Shown: positions 2,807-28,182 of the stretch, piece after piece
Layout: every line of letters begins with the position of its first letter
How positions within the stretch are numbered: position 1 is the first letter of the stretch
Origin: a virus
Reading direction: 5' to 3' (one strand)
DNA length: 32,701 nucleotides
IMG/VR virus record: IMGVR_UViG_3300013126_000130
Span: 1 to 32,701 of that record
Program-made: the position numbers and the translations under genes
The notes under the pieces: model-generated
Seen by the model: only the letters and a program-made list of their open reading frames with translations
The model's database searches: none
Told to the model about the DNA's origin: nothing

Positions 2807-3106
2807 ATGACAACAAAAGACTTAAAATCGGAAATCAAAGCCCTCGCAGAAAAGCAGAGGCAGACCAAGGAACAGAGAAAAACTGTAAACTTCAAGGGAA
2901 CACGTTCTTTGAATCCTAAAGACGCGCAGCTTTTAGCGCTCGAACAGAAAAGCCAACTCAAGCACATGTACATCGCGTACGCTCTGCTCAGAGGCAAATC
3001 TATAGAGACGGCTATCAACCCGGAAACTGAGTATTCACAAAGAAAGGTTGACGAAATCATGGCGAAGTATGCAGAAGCTGTTTGTGTTAGTGAGAACGGA
3101 TCTTAA
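2807..3106 (+). CDS. Hypothetical small basic protein
   Basis: A 99-residue, lysine- and glutamine-rich, mainly helical protein. Residues 5-30 look coiled (LKSEIKALAEKQRQTKEQRK). No domain is recognised. It follows a 134-nt A-rich gap with no promoter motif I can identify; the leader before the ATG (AAAAAAATTCAAAAACA) has no Shine-Dalgarno sequence. Its 3' end overlaps the start of the Pth2-like gene by 38 nt, which suggests translational coupling. Confidence 0.7.
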   Translation: MTTKDLKSEIKALAEKQRQTKEQRKTVNFKGTRSLNPKDAQLLALEQKSQLKHMYIAYALLRGKSIETAINPETEYSQRKVDEIMAKYAEAVCVSENGS

Positions 3107-3362
3107 GGGATCCAGCCCAGCCGTACAGGCTGGCCACGCCGTCGCGCAGTGGATGATTGATCATCCGAACACCTGGGAAAACGAAACCCTGGTCTACCTA
3201 AACGTCGGTTCAAAGTTCGACCTGCACAAGTGGATCTCAAAAATTTACTACAAAGACTTGGATTTCTCAATTTTCAAAGAACCTGACCTTGATCACGAAG
3301 CAACAGCGATCGCTTGTTTAACCGATAAACGCAACATCTTCAGCAACCTTCCGCTCCTGTGA
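3069..3362 (+). CDS. Pth2-like peptidyl-tRNA hydrolase family protein
   Basis: A 97-residue protein starting MQKLFVLVRTDLKGSSPAVQ followed by AGHA. The L-V-R-T-D-L-K ... AxQxxHA pattern is the N-terminal signature of the Pth2 (archaeal/eukaryotic-type) peptidyl-tRNA hydrolase fold. Near the C-terminus FKEPDLDHEATAIA matches the family's E-P-D-L ... T-A-I-A strand. If active it would release peptides from stalled peptidyl-tRNA, fitting the tRNA and RNA-repair theme of the region. The start is inside the preceding gene (38 nt overlap). The stop codon lies in the stem-loop of a terminator. Family likely; activity inferred. Confidence 0.72.
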   Translation: MQKLFVLVRTDLKGSSPAVQAGHAVAQWMIDHPNTWENETLVYLNVGSKFDLHKWISKIYYKDLDFSIFKEPDLDHEATAIACLTDKRNIFSNLPLL

Positions 3363-3858: not shown

Positions 3859-3861
3859 ATT

Positions 3862-3933
3862 GGGTTTGTAGTTCAGCGGTAGAACGGCGGTCTCTAAAAC
3901 CGTTAGTCGGGGGTTCGACTCCCCCATTCCCTC
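3862..3933 (+). tRNA. Amber-suppressor tRNA (anticodon CTA), Trp-like body
   Basis: D arm GTTC-AGCGGTA-GAAC, anticodon stem GCGGT/ACCGT, loop CTCTAAA with anticodon CTA at 3894-3896, variable TAGTC, and T arm GGGGG-TTCGACT-CCCCC are all well formed. CTA reads UAG. The body, especially TGTAGTTCA and the CGGTCTCxAAAACCG anticodon arm, resembles tRNA-Trp with CCA changed to CTA, as in the classic E. coli Su7 suppressor. The acceptor stem is poor: GGG/CCC pairs but TTT faces TT or TC. CCA is not encoded. A terminator follows immediately. The anticodon reading is clear; charging and function are uncertain because of the acceptor stem. Confidence 0.72.
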
Positions 3934-3986: not shown

Positions 3987-5855
3987 ATGTCTAAGAACAG
4001 GATAGCTCTAATCCAAGTATGGTTCGGTAAGCTTCCCAGCTATTTCGAGTACCACCACTCAACCTGCCTAAACCAGAGAATCGATTTTTACTTTTTCACC
4101 GACCAAGAAGTCGACAAAAAGTTCGAAGCTGAAAACGTAAAATTCTTCAAGATCACGCCGAGAGACGTTCAGCAGAGATTGTTCGACAGAACAAAAAGAC
4201 CTCTAGTAATCCCGTCAGCTTACAAGCTCAACGATATTAAGCCTACTTATCCGGACCTTTTTCGAGAGTATGTGAAGGATTACGAGTTCGTTGGTTGGTA
4301 CGATATTGACACTTTGCTTGGAGATGTTGCTTCCTGGATGGAACCTTATCTTGACGAGTTTGACGTGATCTCCTTCGGAGAGAACGGTCCAATTTACAAT
4401 CGCATCTCTGGACCTTTGGCGATAACTCGAAACACCGAAAAAGTTAGAACAGTTTACCTAAATGATCCAACCTTTTACGAGTGCATGTCAAAACCAGACT
4501 ACGACGAGTACGACGAGAGGAAGATAACCGAAACTTACGAAAAGCTAGGGATTCATGTGAAGGTCATGTTTGACTGTTCTAACATGGACCCGATCAGCTA
4601 CAAGATCAAGTTTGACGCACTTTGGACTGGCGGGAAAGTGTACGTTGGCGGAGTAGAAAAGATGATCTACCACTTCTTCAGAAAGAAGCACACTGAGTTC
4701 AAGAGAAGGGGCCAAGCGATCGTAGCTAGGAGAAAAGTGGAGTACTTGGACGATTTCTACTACATCACATACTTCACGCAGAGTTACGAGCCGACCGCTA
4801 GAACTCTGATCAGCACGATAGAAAAGTTCTCGAGAAGAAGGTGCATTTTGTACACGGTGAACTATTCGTCCACGTTAGTTCACGAGCTATCCGATCAATT
4901 CGTAGTTAGGCGGATAGACATCACAGGCAGGGATTTTCTTGACAAGCGCGGGCGCAGCTTCAACACGATCACTTCCAAGCCGGTCATTCAACTCGACTCA
5001 CTTACTGCTTTTCCAGGAAAGAAGTTCGTGTTCCTTGACACCGACATTTACATCACGGTAGGCATGGATTCGATAGCTAAGTACTTCAACCAGCTGGAAA
5101 ATTACCCCTTGACGAATTCCCACGTGCACGACGTCATCTACAGCATAGAAGATAACGGCGACCGCGTTAGTTCGTTGCACGCTCTTGGCGACGAGATAGG
5201 TGTTCCTGTTAGAATATTTCCTAGACGAAAGACCAACGTGATGCTATACGACGAAAGGTCAGCGTGGTTCTTCAAAGAGCAGATGGACATCTACAACGAG
5301 CACAAGGATTCGACCAGGAGGTCCATCTTTAAGTTTCACGATGAGGACACATTCAACATCATACTGTCAAAGTACGACCTCCCTAAAGCCCTCCCAGTAG
5401 TGGACATTGAGGAATCGTTCGACATAAACCTAAACATTTACGATAATTACACTTACAACTGCTGTCCAATATCTGACAAAGCAATCGTTCCGAAAACTGA
5501 TCGTGACGTTTACGTGTTTCATGGTTACAAGAGTCCGGAAGTTTTTCAGCAAGTCGAAGACACCTACGGCTCTACTGTTCTTGATAAAACCGACATGATC
5601 GTCGAGTACGACGGGAAGGACGTTGTTCTGATAAAAACATCGTTTCTCAAGGAGAAAAGGATCGAACCGAAAGTAAACGTCATTCTGAAGGACGATGATG
5701 CCGAAATATTTAGGTGTGGTTGGGAAATATTCAACTCTCAGCTGTTCTTCATCTGGGGAATTCACTTACAGAATCGCAAGACCTACTTGGTAGAACTGAC
5801 CGAACAGGGAACTGACCGTTTAATTTTCAGGACCGAGCTGATCACAAACTACTGA
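3987..5855 (+). CDS. Two-domain glycosyltransferase
   Basis: A 622-residue protein. Residues about 1-210 start IALIQVWFGKLPSYFEYHH, with FYFFTD and, at about 105-115, FVGWYDIDTLLGD. This is the D-x-D-bearing pattern of a GT-A-like family found in polysaccharide clusters (DUF6625-like as I recall it). Residues about 250-500 form a second sugar-transferase-like domain with FVFLDTDIYIT (D-x-D near 350) and a GT8-like layout. The C-terminus is a beta-rich tail. In phages such enzymes modify virion proteins, DNA or host surface sugars; the target is unknown. The next gene encodes a lectin-like virion protein, a possible substrate. It may be expressed from an upstream unit; AGTATAAG near 3961 is a weak promoter candidate. 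Confidence 0.8.
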   Translation: MSKNRIALIQVWFGKLPSYFEYHHSTCLNQRIDFYFFTDQEVDKKFEAENVKFFKITPRDVQQRLFDRTKRPLVIPSAYKLNDIKPTYPDLFREYVKDYEFVGWYDIDTLLGDVASWMEPYLDEFDVISFGENGPIYNRISGPLAITRNTEKVRTVYLNDPTFYECMSKPDYDEYDERKITETYEKLGIHVKVMFDCSNMDPISYKIKFDALWTGGKVYVGGVEKMIYHFFRKKHTEFKRRGQAIVARRKVEYLDDFYYITYFTQSYEPTARTLISTIEKFSRRRCILYTVNYSSTLVHELSDQFVVRRIDITGRDFLDKRGRSFNTITSKPVIQLDSLTAFPGKKFVFLDTDIYITVGMDSIAKYFNQLENYPLTNSHVHDVIYSIEDNGDRVSSLHALGDEIGVPVRIFPRRKTNVMLYDERSAWFFKEQMDIYNEHKDSTRRSIFKFHDEDTFNIILSKYDLPKALPVVDIEESFDINLNIYDNYTYNCCPISDKAIVPKTDRDVYVFHGYKSPEVFQQVEDTYGSTVLDKTDMIVEYDGKDVVLIKTSFLKEKRIEPKVNVILKDDDAEIFRCGWEIFNSQLFFIWGIHLQNRKTYLVELTEQGTDRLIFRTELITNY

Positions 5856-5862
5856 TAAATAA
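5854..5862 (+). promoter_or_regulatory. Late promoter GATAAATAA
   Basis: GATAAATAA starts within the stop codon of the glycosyltransferase and ends 17 nt before ATG 5880, the spacing seen at most late promoters in this window. Confidence 0.6.
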
Positions 5863-5879: not shown

Positions 5880-6851
5880 ATGTCAACTTACCAAGCCAGA
5901 CCTTTTGCAATCGGAGACATCGGTGCAGGCGGGATAGCCTATTACAACATGTCGATAGGCGAACCGAACCTTAATTACGATGAACTTCCTGGTGGGTTGA
6001 CGTGGTACATGGAACCAAACGAGATACCCGGGTTCATCATAGCTTTGTAGAACGGAGCTGAACCGACATTCTTTAGGTCCACTAATAAGACTGATGCTAG
6101 CTACCTTTCGCTACTACAATCTCTATACAAGAGCAGCACAGGATTGGAACCTGGCACAACGATACCCTGGTTCGACACGTTCCTTTCTACCAACAGCCTG
6201 TACACTTCTTACGAGGTCAGCGGGTCGATGAGCTTCACTGGAACTGGAACGTGTTACGGAGAAGTAGCCAGCGCTACCGACCTTCTCCCAGGAACGAATG
6301 ATTTTACAGTTGAATGGTTCCAGAAACAGAGCTTAGGTTCGGATTTTCCTAGAGTATTTCAGTTCGGTGCATGGCCTTCAGGATTCGGCACAAGCTCGAA
6401 AAGCGGAGCAATCTATTTTTGGTACAACGGGCAGTACATATTCAGAGGCTTGCCTACCTGGCAGGATGAGTGGATCCACATAGCGATATGCCGTTACAAG
6501 AATTACGTGAGGATATTTCACAACGACACTCAGCTTGGAGCAGCGGCTTACATACCGGACAACATCACTGATACTGAAACTGTTATGCATTTGGGAATCG
6601 ACCCTGGATACGCTTCTACCACTTACTTCACCGAGTTGATAAGCAACTTTCACGTAAATCCAACTGTTGCAAAATACTGGGAAAACTTTTCTGCGCCGAC
6701 ATCAGGATTGAACATATCTTACGATTCTCACCTTCTTTTGAGAGCATCAACCAACGGTTCTCTTCTAACCGATTCCAGTCCAATCGGAATGACTGTAACT
6801 ACTGCTGGATCAACACCTATAGCTTGGAGCTCAGATAAACCTTTCGTCTAA
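5880..6851 (+). CDS. Lectin-like (LamG/ConA fold) virion protein with in-frame UAG at codon 57
   Basis: Reading from ATG 5880 gives 324 codons in one frame, interrupted only by TAG at 6048-6050 (codon 57), in the context PGFIIAL-UAG-NGAEPTFFRST. The downstream part continues in the same frame to TAA 6851 and contains a jelly-roll lectin pattern: FTVEWFQK, FGAWPS, IYFWYNGQYIF, WIHIAICRYKNYVRIFHNDTQ. Such LamG/ConA-like domains are common in phage tail fibres and head decorations. A late promoter precedes ATG 5880 at the standard distance. Read as Trp by the nearby CTA tRNA the segment would be IALWNG; the only difference from TGG is one base. Without suppression, translation would yield a 56-residue peptide, or restart at an internal codon such as ATG 6229. 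A sequencing error or strain mutation remains possible. Confidence 0.75.
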
Positions 6852-26490: not shown

Positions 26491-28182
26491 TTACAATCCT
26501 CCGCCAGGAGGTGCAAGTTCGCTAGCTGTTTCTTTTTCTGGACCGGCCTGTGCTGCTGGTTCTTCAGGCTGAGCTCCTGGGCCTGCTGGTGCAGGCAAAG
26601 TAACCTCAGCGTCCTGACCTTCTGAAGTTTTTCCGCCGGATTTTGCAAGGTAATCCTTGTTCTTTTGGATGACTTGGTCGCTGAGCTTGAGGTATTCCTT
26701 GACGAGAAAGTCTGAGGAGAAGTACGGCCTGTTCTGATCGTCCGTGATAGCTTTGAGGGCGTTGATGGCTGCGATTCTCTTGTTGAGAAGATCCTGATTC
26801 TTGATTTCCTCGAACACGTTATCATCGTACCAAATAACTCCGACCGAGTTTTTGAATTTCTGGTCGTTTCTTAGTTCCTTAACGTCCATGCAGACTTGCA
26901 GGTACAGAGGTTTGGTTATGAGTTCCTGGTAAGCAGACCTTAACCGCTTGATGAACTTGTTGTAACGGATTTCTTCTCTGGAAATACCTTCGGACGTAAG
27001 CGTGAATATTCCGCCACCTTCGCTAAACCTAGACGCCGGGATCTTTGAATCCTGCTTTAGTTTTTCGGTAAAGTACTTCAATAATTCCGAACCTGACAGG
27101 TTAGGACCTTGGTACTCTAGCGGTTCGATCTTTACTTGCTGTTGCTGATCGTTGGCCGGAACGACGTAGTTCTTGTAGAACAAGATGTTAGGTTTTCCGT
27201 CAACTCTCAATTCTCCGGATTCACCGTCAAAGTAAATGTCTTCTTTTAGAGTGTTAACGAACTCTCGTACGTCTTCCTTGGCTTTCTGCATTGACTTGGT
27301 TCCGATCGGAACGGTTGTTACCAAACGAATAGGTGCATGCATTGTGTGCCAGATGACCTTGGAGTGCTCGATTATCCTCAGCATGTTGAACGATCTTACT
27401 AGACGTTCGGCGAAGCTTACGCGCTTCGTTCTCATGTGATTTGAGTAAGACAAGTAGATGATCTGCGAATCGTTCAGCTGACGATCTTTTTTCGTGATAG
27501 GGTCTCTTTGAGTCCACTGAAGAACGATTTTTCCCTCGTTATCTTTTTTAAGTATAGGATATAGAGAAGCTGGATCGAGTTCTTTGAACCCGATGATCTC
27601 AGTAGGTTTATCGATGTTATCATAGATGATTTCGAAAGCCAGGTGACCTTCGATGAGCCACTGGTAAAAGTATTGCCAAGCTGAAATTCCCTGGTCAAAT
27701 CCCCAACGACTGTAAATCTTTGAAAATGCAGCTTGGTAAGAGTTTATGATGCGCTCTTGGTAATCCAAACGATTTTTCTTGTTGTCTCCCAAGTACTGCA
27801 TCTCACCGACCAAATCGTTTGCGTAACAGAATCGATTGTCCTCGTCAAAAACGATAGCATCGTCAGTTATGGTTTCCAGGATGAATTCTATCTCACCGTT
27901 GGAAGCAATGTCGCGAAGACGCTCTCTTTTTGAAATGTAATCGAGTTGGAAAAAAGCGATCGCTTTCGTTTTTATCGAAGAAGTAGTGTCCGACAGAGCT
28001 AACGTAGCTCTCATGAGATCGTCCGACGCAAAGCCGGCAGCTCCGCTGAGCTGACTTTCGATAAAACCTATCGCTTGAGAGTTCTTTATCAGGAGATCGT
28101 CGTACTTTAGACCGAACCTGCTAAGCTCAGTCAACCTAGACTTGAGCGATCGCATAGGGTTACCTTCTAAAAATCCTGCCAT
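26491..28182 (-). CDS. 20: Portal protein gp20
   Basis: A 563-residue protein (T4 gp20: 524). Recognisable T4-type portal segments: WQYFYQWLIEGHLAFEIIYD, ELDPASLYPI, DSQIIYLSYSNH, FNMLRIIEHSKVIWH, RLVTTVPIGTKSMQKAKEDV, ALEYQGPN-like LEYQGPNLSGSELLKYFTEK and IPASRFSEGGGIFT. The C-terminal 60 residues (Gly/Pro/Ala/Glu-rich) are disordered. It forms the dodecameric gate of the head and docks the terminase and the neck. It reads leftward, with gp4 and one gene upstream. Confidence 0.95.
   Translation of the reverse strand: MAGFLEGNPMRSLKSRLTELSRFGLKYDDLLIKNSQAIGFIESQLSGAAGFASDDLMRATLALSDTTSSIKTKAIAFFQLDYISKRERLRDIASNGEIEFILETITDDAIVFDEDNRFCYANDLVGEMQYLGDNKKNRLDYQERIINSYQAAFSKIYSRWGFDQGISAWQYFYQWLIEGHLAFEIIYDNIDKPTEIIGFKELDPASLYPILKKDNEGKIVLQWTQRDPITKKDRQLNDSQIIYLSYSNHMRTKRVSFAERLVRSFNMLRIIEHSKVIWHTMHAPIRLVTTVPIGTKSMQKAKEDVREFVNTLKEDIYFDGESGELRVDGKPNILFYKNYVVPANDQQQQVKIEPLEYQGPNLSGSELLKYFTEKLKQDSKIPASRFSEGGGIFTLTSEGISREEIRYNKFIKRLRSAYQELITKPLYLQVCMDVKELRNDQKFKNSVGVIWYDDNVFEEIKNQDLLNKRIAAINALKAITDDQNRPYFSSDFLVKEYLKLSDQVIQKNKDYLAKSGGKTSEGQDAEVTLPAPAGPGAQPEEPAAQAGPEKETASELAPPGGGL

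Follow-up and report, generated by a model that had tools for sequence, protein, structure and literature searches.

The stretch of viral DNA analysed here, referred to as the window (32,701 nt; positions 1 to 32,701 of IMG/VR record IMGVR_UViG_3300013126_000130), carries on its plus strand a reading frame of 323 codons, from the ATG at 5880 to a TAA ending at 6851, that specifies an N-terminal domain followed by a Laminin-G/ConA-like domain. Translation confirmed, as the initial annotation had stated, that this frame contains exactly one in-frame stop, a TAG at codon 57 (6048-6050, plus strand; context TTG TAG AAC); the 266 codons 3' of it stay open and are coding-like (score 30.8). A late promoter had been claimed at the normal distance before the gene, and GATAAATA, a T4-type late promoter-like motif, was indeed found at 5854-5861 (plus strand), 26 nt 5' of the ATG. 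The start context of ATG 5880 scored above 99% of random ATGs, whereas the first in-frame ATG past the stop, at 6228-6230 (plus strand), where the lectin domain begins, has a poor context (54th percentile of random ATGs). The only other candidate restart is the first in-frame TTG past the stop, at 6144-6146 (plus strand), which lies in an A-rich context. No marks of a pseudogene (frameshifts, further stops, or a lost promoter or start) were found at 5880-6851, a result that still allows for a single recent lesion, and the RNA near the TAG showed no unusual fold that might stimulate read-through (z -0.9 to -1.3).

The window lies wholly inside a 131,445-bp IMG/VR contig, IMGVR_UViG_3300013125_000003, from which it differs at two of its 32,701 positions (18169 and 31993). 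The TAG at 6048-6050 is identical in both assemblies, and because the second of these differs by two bases and yet has the same TAG, a random sequencing error at this codon is unlikely. Across the 131 kb contig, late-promoter motifs of the form [T/G/A]ATAAATA are strongly enriched before genes, with a usual spacing of 25-37 nt: GATAAATA was found upstream of genes 8 times (0.5 expected), AATAAATA 10 times, and TATAAATA 6 times (0.3 expected). This enrichment, together with a gp20-type portal gene at 26491-28182 (minus strand) of the window, argues that the phage is T4-like. Shine-Dalgarno motifs occurred at 4.5% of gene starts, against 11% at random ATGs, and upstream regions are A-rich, a gene-start pattern that suggests a probable Bacteroidota host. 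Among the approximately 125 genes of the contig, the lectin gene was the sole one with a long, coding-like extension past its stop that was not simply a neighbouring gene; the pattern of interruption at 5880-6851 is more than chance.

Domain Architecture of the Product

The lectin-like character of this late gene, first proposed from the letters of the sequence, was borne out by database matches as well as by the promoter motif. Residues 127-259 (6258-6656, plus strand) matched Laminin_G_3 in Pfam, with an E value of 4e-6 that lay 0.2 bits below the cut-off, and also matched virion structural and baseplate wedge families in PHROGs; counterparts of this Laminin_G_3/ConA-like lectin domain in L003 and LR756501 were 29-33% identical. 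The N-terminal domain (residues 1-112; 5880-6215, plus strand), which spans the TAG, had no match in Pfam, PHROGs or the PDB, a fold search of the PDB gave no match either, and tblastn against GenBank phages found nothing. Its relatives were first located in IMG/VR at the DNA level, through a degenerate pattern that encodes F[FYW]x[ST]xxKTDAx[FY], and profile scans of IMG/VR then brought the total to 87 distinct copies, the window copy included. It is a widespread part of phage adhesins that has no Pfam or PHROGs family (the 86 further IMG/VR copies fall within L033-L149), and is joined to varied C-terminal domains, among them a LamG-like one in L030. Structures matched by this domain in BFVD were those of GLEYA, ConA-lectin and SPRY phage proteins. 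With a common N-terminal domain, an adhesin-type C-terminal domain after it, and a late promoter in front, 5880-6851 is the gene of one late phage adhesin with a lectin domain.

In an AlphaFold model of the N-terminal domain, built from 33 sequences (pLDDT 77), residue 57 sits in a beta-hairpin of a single domain; a prediction for the whole protein from its sequence alone reached a pLDDT of only 35. Because residue 57 falls within the modelled hairpin, the TAG divides one folded domain, so that a 56-residue product would represent half a domain, and a full-length product would therefore need UAG decoding.

Codon 57 in Related Adhesins

When relatives were compared at codon 57, sense codons were found. 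An internal stop was present in just one of the 87 distinct N-terminal copies in IMG/VR, that of the window phage, and none of the other 86 showed the conserved stop expected of programmed read-through; a conserved stop in this adhesin family is thereby ruled out. The hairpin loop is about 11 residues longer in most relatives, and the position of codon 57 is ambiguous in these. Four relatives (L062, L064, L071 and L080) have exactly the loop length of the window phage and give a gap-free alignment, GYLIVKQNGSDPSFWRS against GFIIAL*NGAEPTFFRS, and all four have Gln at the TAG position, encoded by CAA, CAA, CAG and CAG, respectively. A change from CAG to TAG is a single transition. These four relatives are mutually close and provide moderate evidence that Gln was the ancestral residue at codon 57. 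Since the 86 other copies are uninterrupted and the four of the same length carry Gln, the TAG is recent and private to the window phage.

The CTA tRNA and Neighbouring Genes

A tRNA with the anticodon CTA (3894-3896, plus strand, in the loop CTCTAAA) was called by both ARAGORN and Rfam (53 bits) at 3861-3933 on the plus strand. It lies upstream of the adhesin gene, and the distance from its end to the TAG is 2115 nt, in agreement with the UAG-reading tRNA that the initial annotation had placed about 2.1 kb away. The D, anticodon and T arms are sound, but the acceptor stem (GGGUUUG versus AUUCCCU) forms only 3-5 of 7 pairs in any register and contains two or three U-U mismatches; the gene also lacks an encoded CCA, so charging of the tRNA may be weak. 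The CTA tRNA of Cronobacter phage GAP32 has exactly the same D arm, GTAGTTCAGCGGTAGAACG, and the anticodon stem of the window tRNA, read by eye, differs from that of GAP32 at 28-42 and 29-41 with pairing maintained. The core of the molecule is similar to a tRNA-Trp(CCA) in which a single base of the anticodon is altered (87% over 66 nt in Frankia), while phage CTA tRNAs are 84% identical to it, and both are candidates for its origin. The tRNA, a putative suppressor, is likely enough to be functional for the possibility to be taken seriously.

A gene for a peptidyl-tRNA hydrolase-like (PTH2-like) protein (3069-3362, plus strand) lies 0.5 kb upstream of the CTA tRNA. It matched the hydrolase family phrog_3668 (6e-11) and the PTH2 domain of an HD-PTH2 fusion in phage XacN1 (E 4e-9), and Pfam PTH2 with an E value of just 0.06. 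Only two tRNAs were detected on the 131 kb contig, the amber suppressor and, at 1446-1519 of the window, an initiator-like tRNA-Met (C1-A72 mismatch, CGCGGGG start). Adjoining the tRNAs is an RNA ligase gene with an N-terminal HNH-like part (1617-2672; phrog_24030), and near this a cREC_REC gene (349-690); the ligase, tRNAs and cREC_REC gene may possibly form an RNA repair cluster.

Use of TAG in the Window Phage

TAG terminates about nine of the 125 or so genes on the 131 kb contig, including 7 of the 103 high-scoring ones, and since only the lectin gene was extended beyond one, the window phage uses TAG as an ordinary stop. The TAG-ended genes and the lack of any other interrupted gene rule out a general reassignment. 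Two additional frames beginning ATG AAR TAG, at 1323 and 2720, were considered as further interrupted genes and set aside; that at 1323 meets the tRNA-Met gene before it could reach the probable start of the ligase at 1617. Neither an RF-1-family protein nor a Trp/Tyr-type synthetase was found on the 131 kb contig, which may be incomplete.

Phages that use code 15 (crAss-like, Lak, jumbo) have in-frame TAG in many, mostly late genes and avoid TAG as a terminator, and this code has metaproteomic support (PMC9523058). The window phage is like them in that it encodes a CTA suppressor tRNA, albeit with a weak acceptor stem, in that the TAG lies in a late virion gene, and in that Gln would be the expected residue. 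It differs in having one gene among about 125 interrupted, by one TAG, while other genes end in TAG, and there is no reassignment across the late genes. The window phage combines a suppressor tRNA with a derived in-frame stop, at a codon that is sense in its relatives, under a code that is otherwise standard, as expected of incipient recoding.

Lone CTA tRNAs and an Interrupted Gene in Other Jumbo Phages

Phages GAP32 and CBB, both of which encode a CTA tRNA and terminate genes with TAG in the normal way, were put through the stop-extension scan used on the window contig. In either genome a single TAG-ended gene was followed by a long coding stretch that has no ATG close by, and the two phages share this gene: JN882285.1 290461-291027 in GAP32 (annotated as GAP32_398 and GAP32_399) and KU574722.1 286338-286904 in CBB (CBB_407 and CBB_408). 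It is likewise interrupted in Kaldavass, BF and XbC2 (4501-5067 in L201, L202 and L203), and in all five phages the TAG is at codon 47. The 188-residue product has HD-type motifs, assigned by reading the sequence, and showed no significant match to Pfam; in PHROGs, the full HD-type family is phrog_14850 and the 46-residue fragment forms a separate one, phrog_26054. Existing annotations split the interrupted gene into two or more hypothetical proteins. For the segment that runs from the TAG to the first ATG after it in GAP32, dN/dS values were 0.05-0.26, comparable to those of the flanking parts, which argues that the protein sequence directly past the codon-47 TAG is under purifying selection. 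In all five phages the CTA tRNA lies 2.7-3.5 kb downstream of the HD-type gene, and although those of Kaldavass (L201 7372-7445) and XbC2 (L203 7921-7994) are very different in sequence, they occupy the place matching those of GAP32, CBB and BF, and keep the anticodon CTA.

Homologues of the HD-type gene are uninterrupted in ME3, Arash, pT24, RAS14, XacN1 and LR745206. No clear or comparable gene with an interrupting in-frame TAG was detected when ME3, pT24 and Arash, which have a CTA tRNA nearby, were scanned, so the pairing of a lone tRNA with an interrupted gene recurs, yet is not universal, and an interrupted gene cannot be presumed from a lone CTA tRNA. As some candidates with TAA or TGA are also flagged in these genomes, which are larger, the scan is by itself no proof, and the codon-47 argument rests on conservation across the five phages. 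The HD-type gene is possibly a stronger case than the adhesin of the window. A scan of phiM12 gave no clear in-frame TAG gene; the tRNA of this phage (KF381361.1) has the anticodon TTA, and there are coding-like extensions past TAA at 129138-129320, 66885-68447 and 177155-177646, for which GTG or TTG starts are possible. In XacN1 (AP018399.1 243756-244595) and RAS14, the HD part is fused to a PTH2-like domain, and PTH2-like genes or domains recur near CTA suppressor tRNAs in the window, XacN1, ME3 (L205), Arash (L204) and pT24 (L206), where they may act with the adjoining tRNA on translation.

Interpretation of the Interrupted Adhesin Gene

The arrangement is probably best explained by recoding of a single codon, whereby a Gln codon in the N-terminal attachment domain of a late adhesin gene mutated to TAG and full-length adhesin is still made through the phage CUA tRNA. 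This tRNA would read UAG during infection, provided that it is charged, suppresses, and yields enough full-length protein. The amino acid entered would be Gln if the alignment is a guide, although the similarity to tRNA-Trp makes Trp possible. The TAG might act as a switch that makes adhesin output late or low while the tRNA accumulates, or the stop might just be tolerated. Support for the recoding of this codon comes from the single frame, the one domain that extends over the TAG, the 86 copies with sense codons, the CTA tRNA, the lack of a second lesion, the strong start at 5880 as opposed to the poor ATG at 6228, and the Gln of the same-length relatives, while the codon-47 TAG and CTA tRNA of GAP32, CBB, Kaldavass, BF and XbC2 offer a precedent. 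Counting against it are the lack of conservation of the TAG, with no sign of long-standing selection for a stop there, the weak acceptor stem, the RF-1-family protein and Trp/Tyr-type synthetase missing from a contig that may be incomplete, the roughly nine genes that end in TAG as ordinary stops, and the examples of ME3, pT24 and Arash, by which a lone CTA tRNA is no proof of a target. The initial annotation had suggested that production of this virion protein could depend on phage-driven UAG decoding, for instance as a timing or host-range control. This is supported in so far as a full-length product would require decoding of a TAG within one domain and the phage encodes a CTA tRNA, a candidate decoder with U-U mismatches in its acceptor stem; a conserved switch is not supported, the TAG being private. 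A timing or host-range switch under selection may exist, but with the TAG private to the window phage, only the arrangement of tRNA and gene speaks for it.

The main rival is a plain nonsense mutation, by which the adhesin would be lost or nearly lost in the phage population, the tRNA being unrelated or a degenerating relic. The private TAG and the weak acceptor stem are consistent with this, adhesin genes of phages turn over fast, and the identity of the stop is weak evidence for recoding because TAG accounts for 39% of one-step routes to a stop in the gene set. Such a mutation is nevertheless rather unlikely, though far from negligible: the 323 codons contain no second lesion, the two assemblies agree on the TAG, no other gene on the 131 kb is interrupted, the late promoter and strong start have been kept, and it would be a rare coincidence for the same phage to encode a tRNA that reads UAG. 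A different outcome would be two products, a 56-residue peptide ending at the TAG and the lectin domain made separately from TTG 6144 or ATG 6228. The position of this ATG, right where the lectin domain starts, the A-rich context of the TTG, and the N-terminal extension of the related lectin in LR756501, which is only short, would suit separate synthesis, but it is improbable, given that the TAG halves the N-terminal domain, that the context of ATG 6228 is unremarkable and no promoter motif was seen there, and that relatives join the N-terminal domain and C-terminal part in one frame.

An error of sequencing or assembly at 6048-6050, conceivable in metagenome-derived sequence, is very improbable in view of the second assembly, which has the same codon and its two differences elsewhere. 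Equally improbable is that the TAG is tolerated by way of a host amber suppressor or basal read-through and not the phage tRNA. A UAG with A as the next base is permissive for read-through, but the codon has no read-through structure near it, and the phage itself encodes a CTA tRNA.

Comparison with Known Systems

The read-through protein A1 of the Qbeta coat is an example of programmed stop read-through of a virion protein, and in the window, too, a full-length virion protein would need read-through of an early stop. The window differs in that the stop is not conserved and no read-through signal was seen, nor is the phage known to use two products. The best fit is with suppressor pre-emergence, as described for a crAss-like phage in which a suppressor was acquired and the first in-frame TAG codons followed (Yutin et al. 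2021, PMC7886860). Both cases combine a suppressor tRNA under the standard code with first TAG codons in genes, but the window phage is T4-like, with a single codon affected in a tail-adhesin gene, and its tRNA has its relatives among those of T4-superfamily phages and in tRNA-Trp, and is not one that arose afresh by point mutation of a tRNA next to it. The window would then represent pre-emergence in another phage group and on the smallest scale.

The jumbo phages with lone suppressors (GAP32, CBB, BF, XacN1) resemble the window phage in the D arm, identical in GAP32, and in the nearby PTH2-like gene, while the target in GAP32, CBB and BF differs, being an HD-type gene with a conserved TAG rather than an adhesin. 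In XacN1, two CUA suppressor tRNAs were reported to have no identifiable targets (PMC5852040), and the purpose of the suppressor tRNA of Summit was called unknown (PMC9022506). The window offers a candidate target of a lone suppressor tRNA in a tail adhesin, and the GAP32-group comparison adds a second, conserved candidate, in cultured phages. It may tentatively be proposed that, in T4-superfamily phages with the standard code, a lone suppressor tRNA sometimes serves one dedicated nearby in-frame amber gene, and, with the same reserve, that such a pair of one tRNA and one gene could be a read-through control circuit, acting on the HD-type gene in GAP32, CBB and BF and on the tail adhesin in the window. 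If true, stop-codon recoding in phages is not all-or-none, and can start with, or stay at, one codon in one gene.

Two minor features of the assemblies were also observed. Both begin at the same base, and positions 1-103 of the window share 86% identity with the DNA methyltransferase gene of Flavobacterium siphophages, possibly reflecting an assembly break at a shared gene. Beside the tail genes of the 131 kb contig, on the minus strand at 125767-130971, is a gene of 1734 residues that is apparently repetitive and has an extreme coding score of 803.
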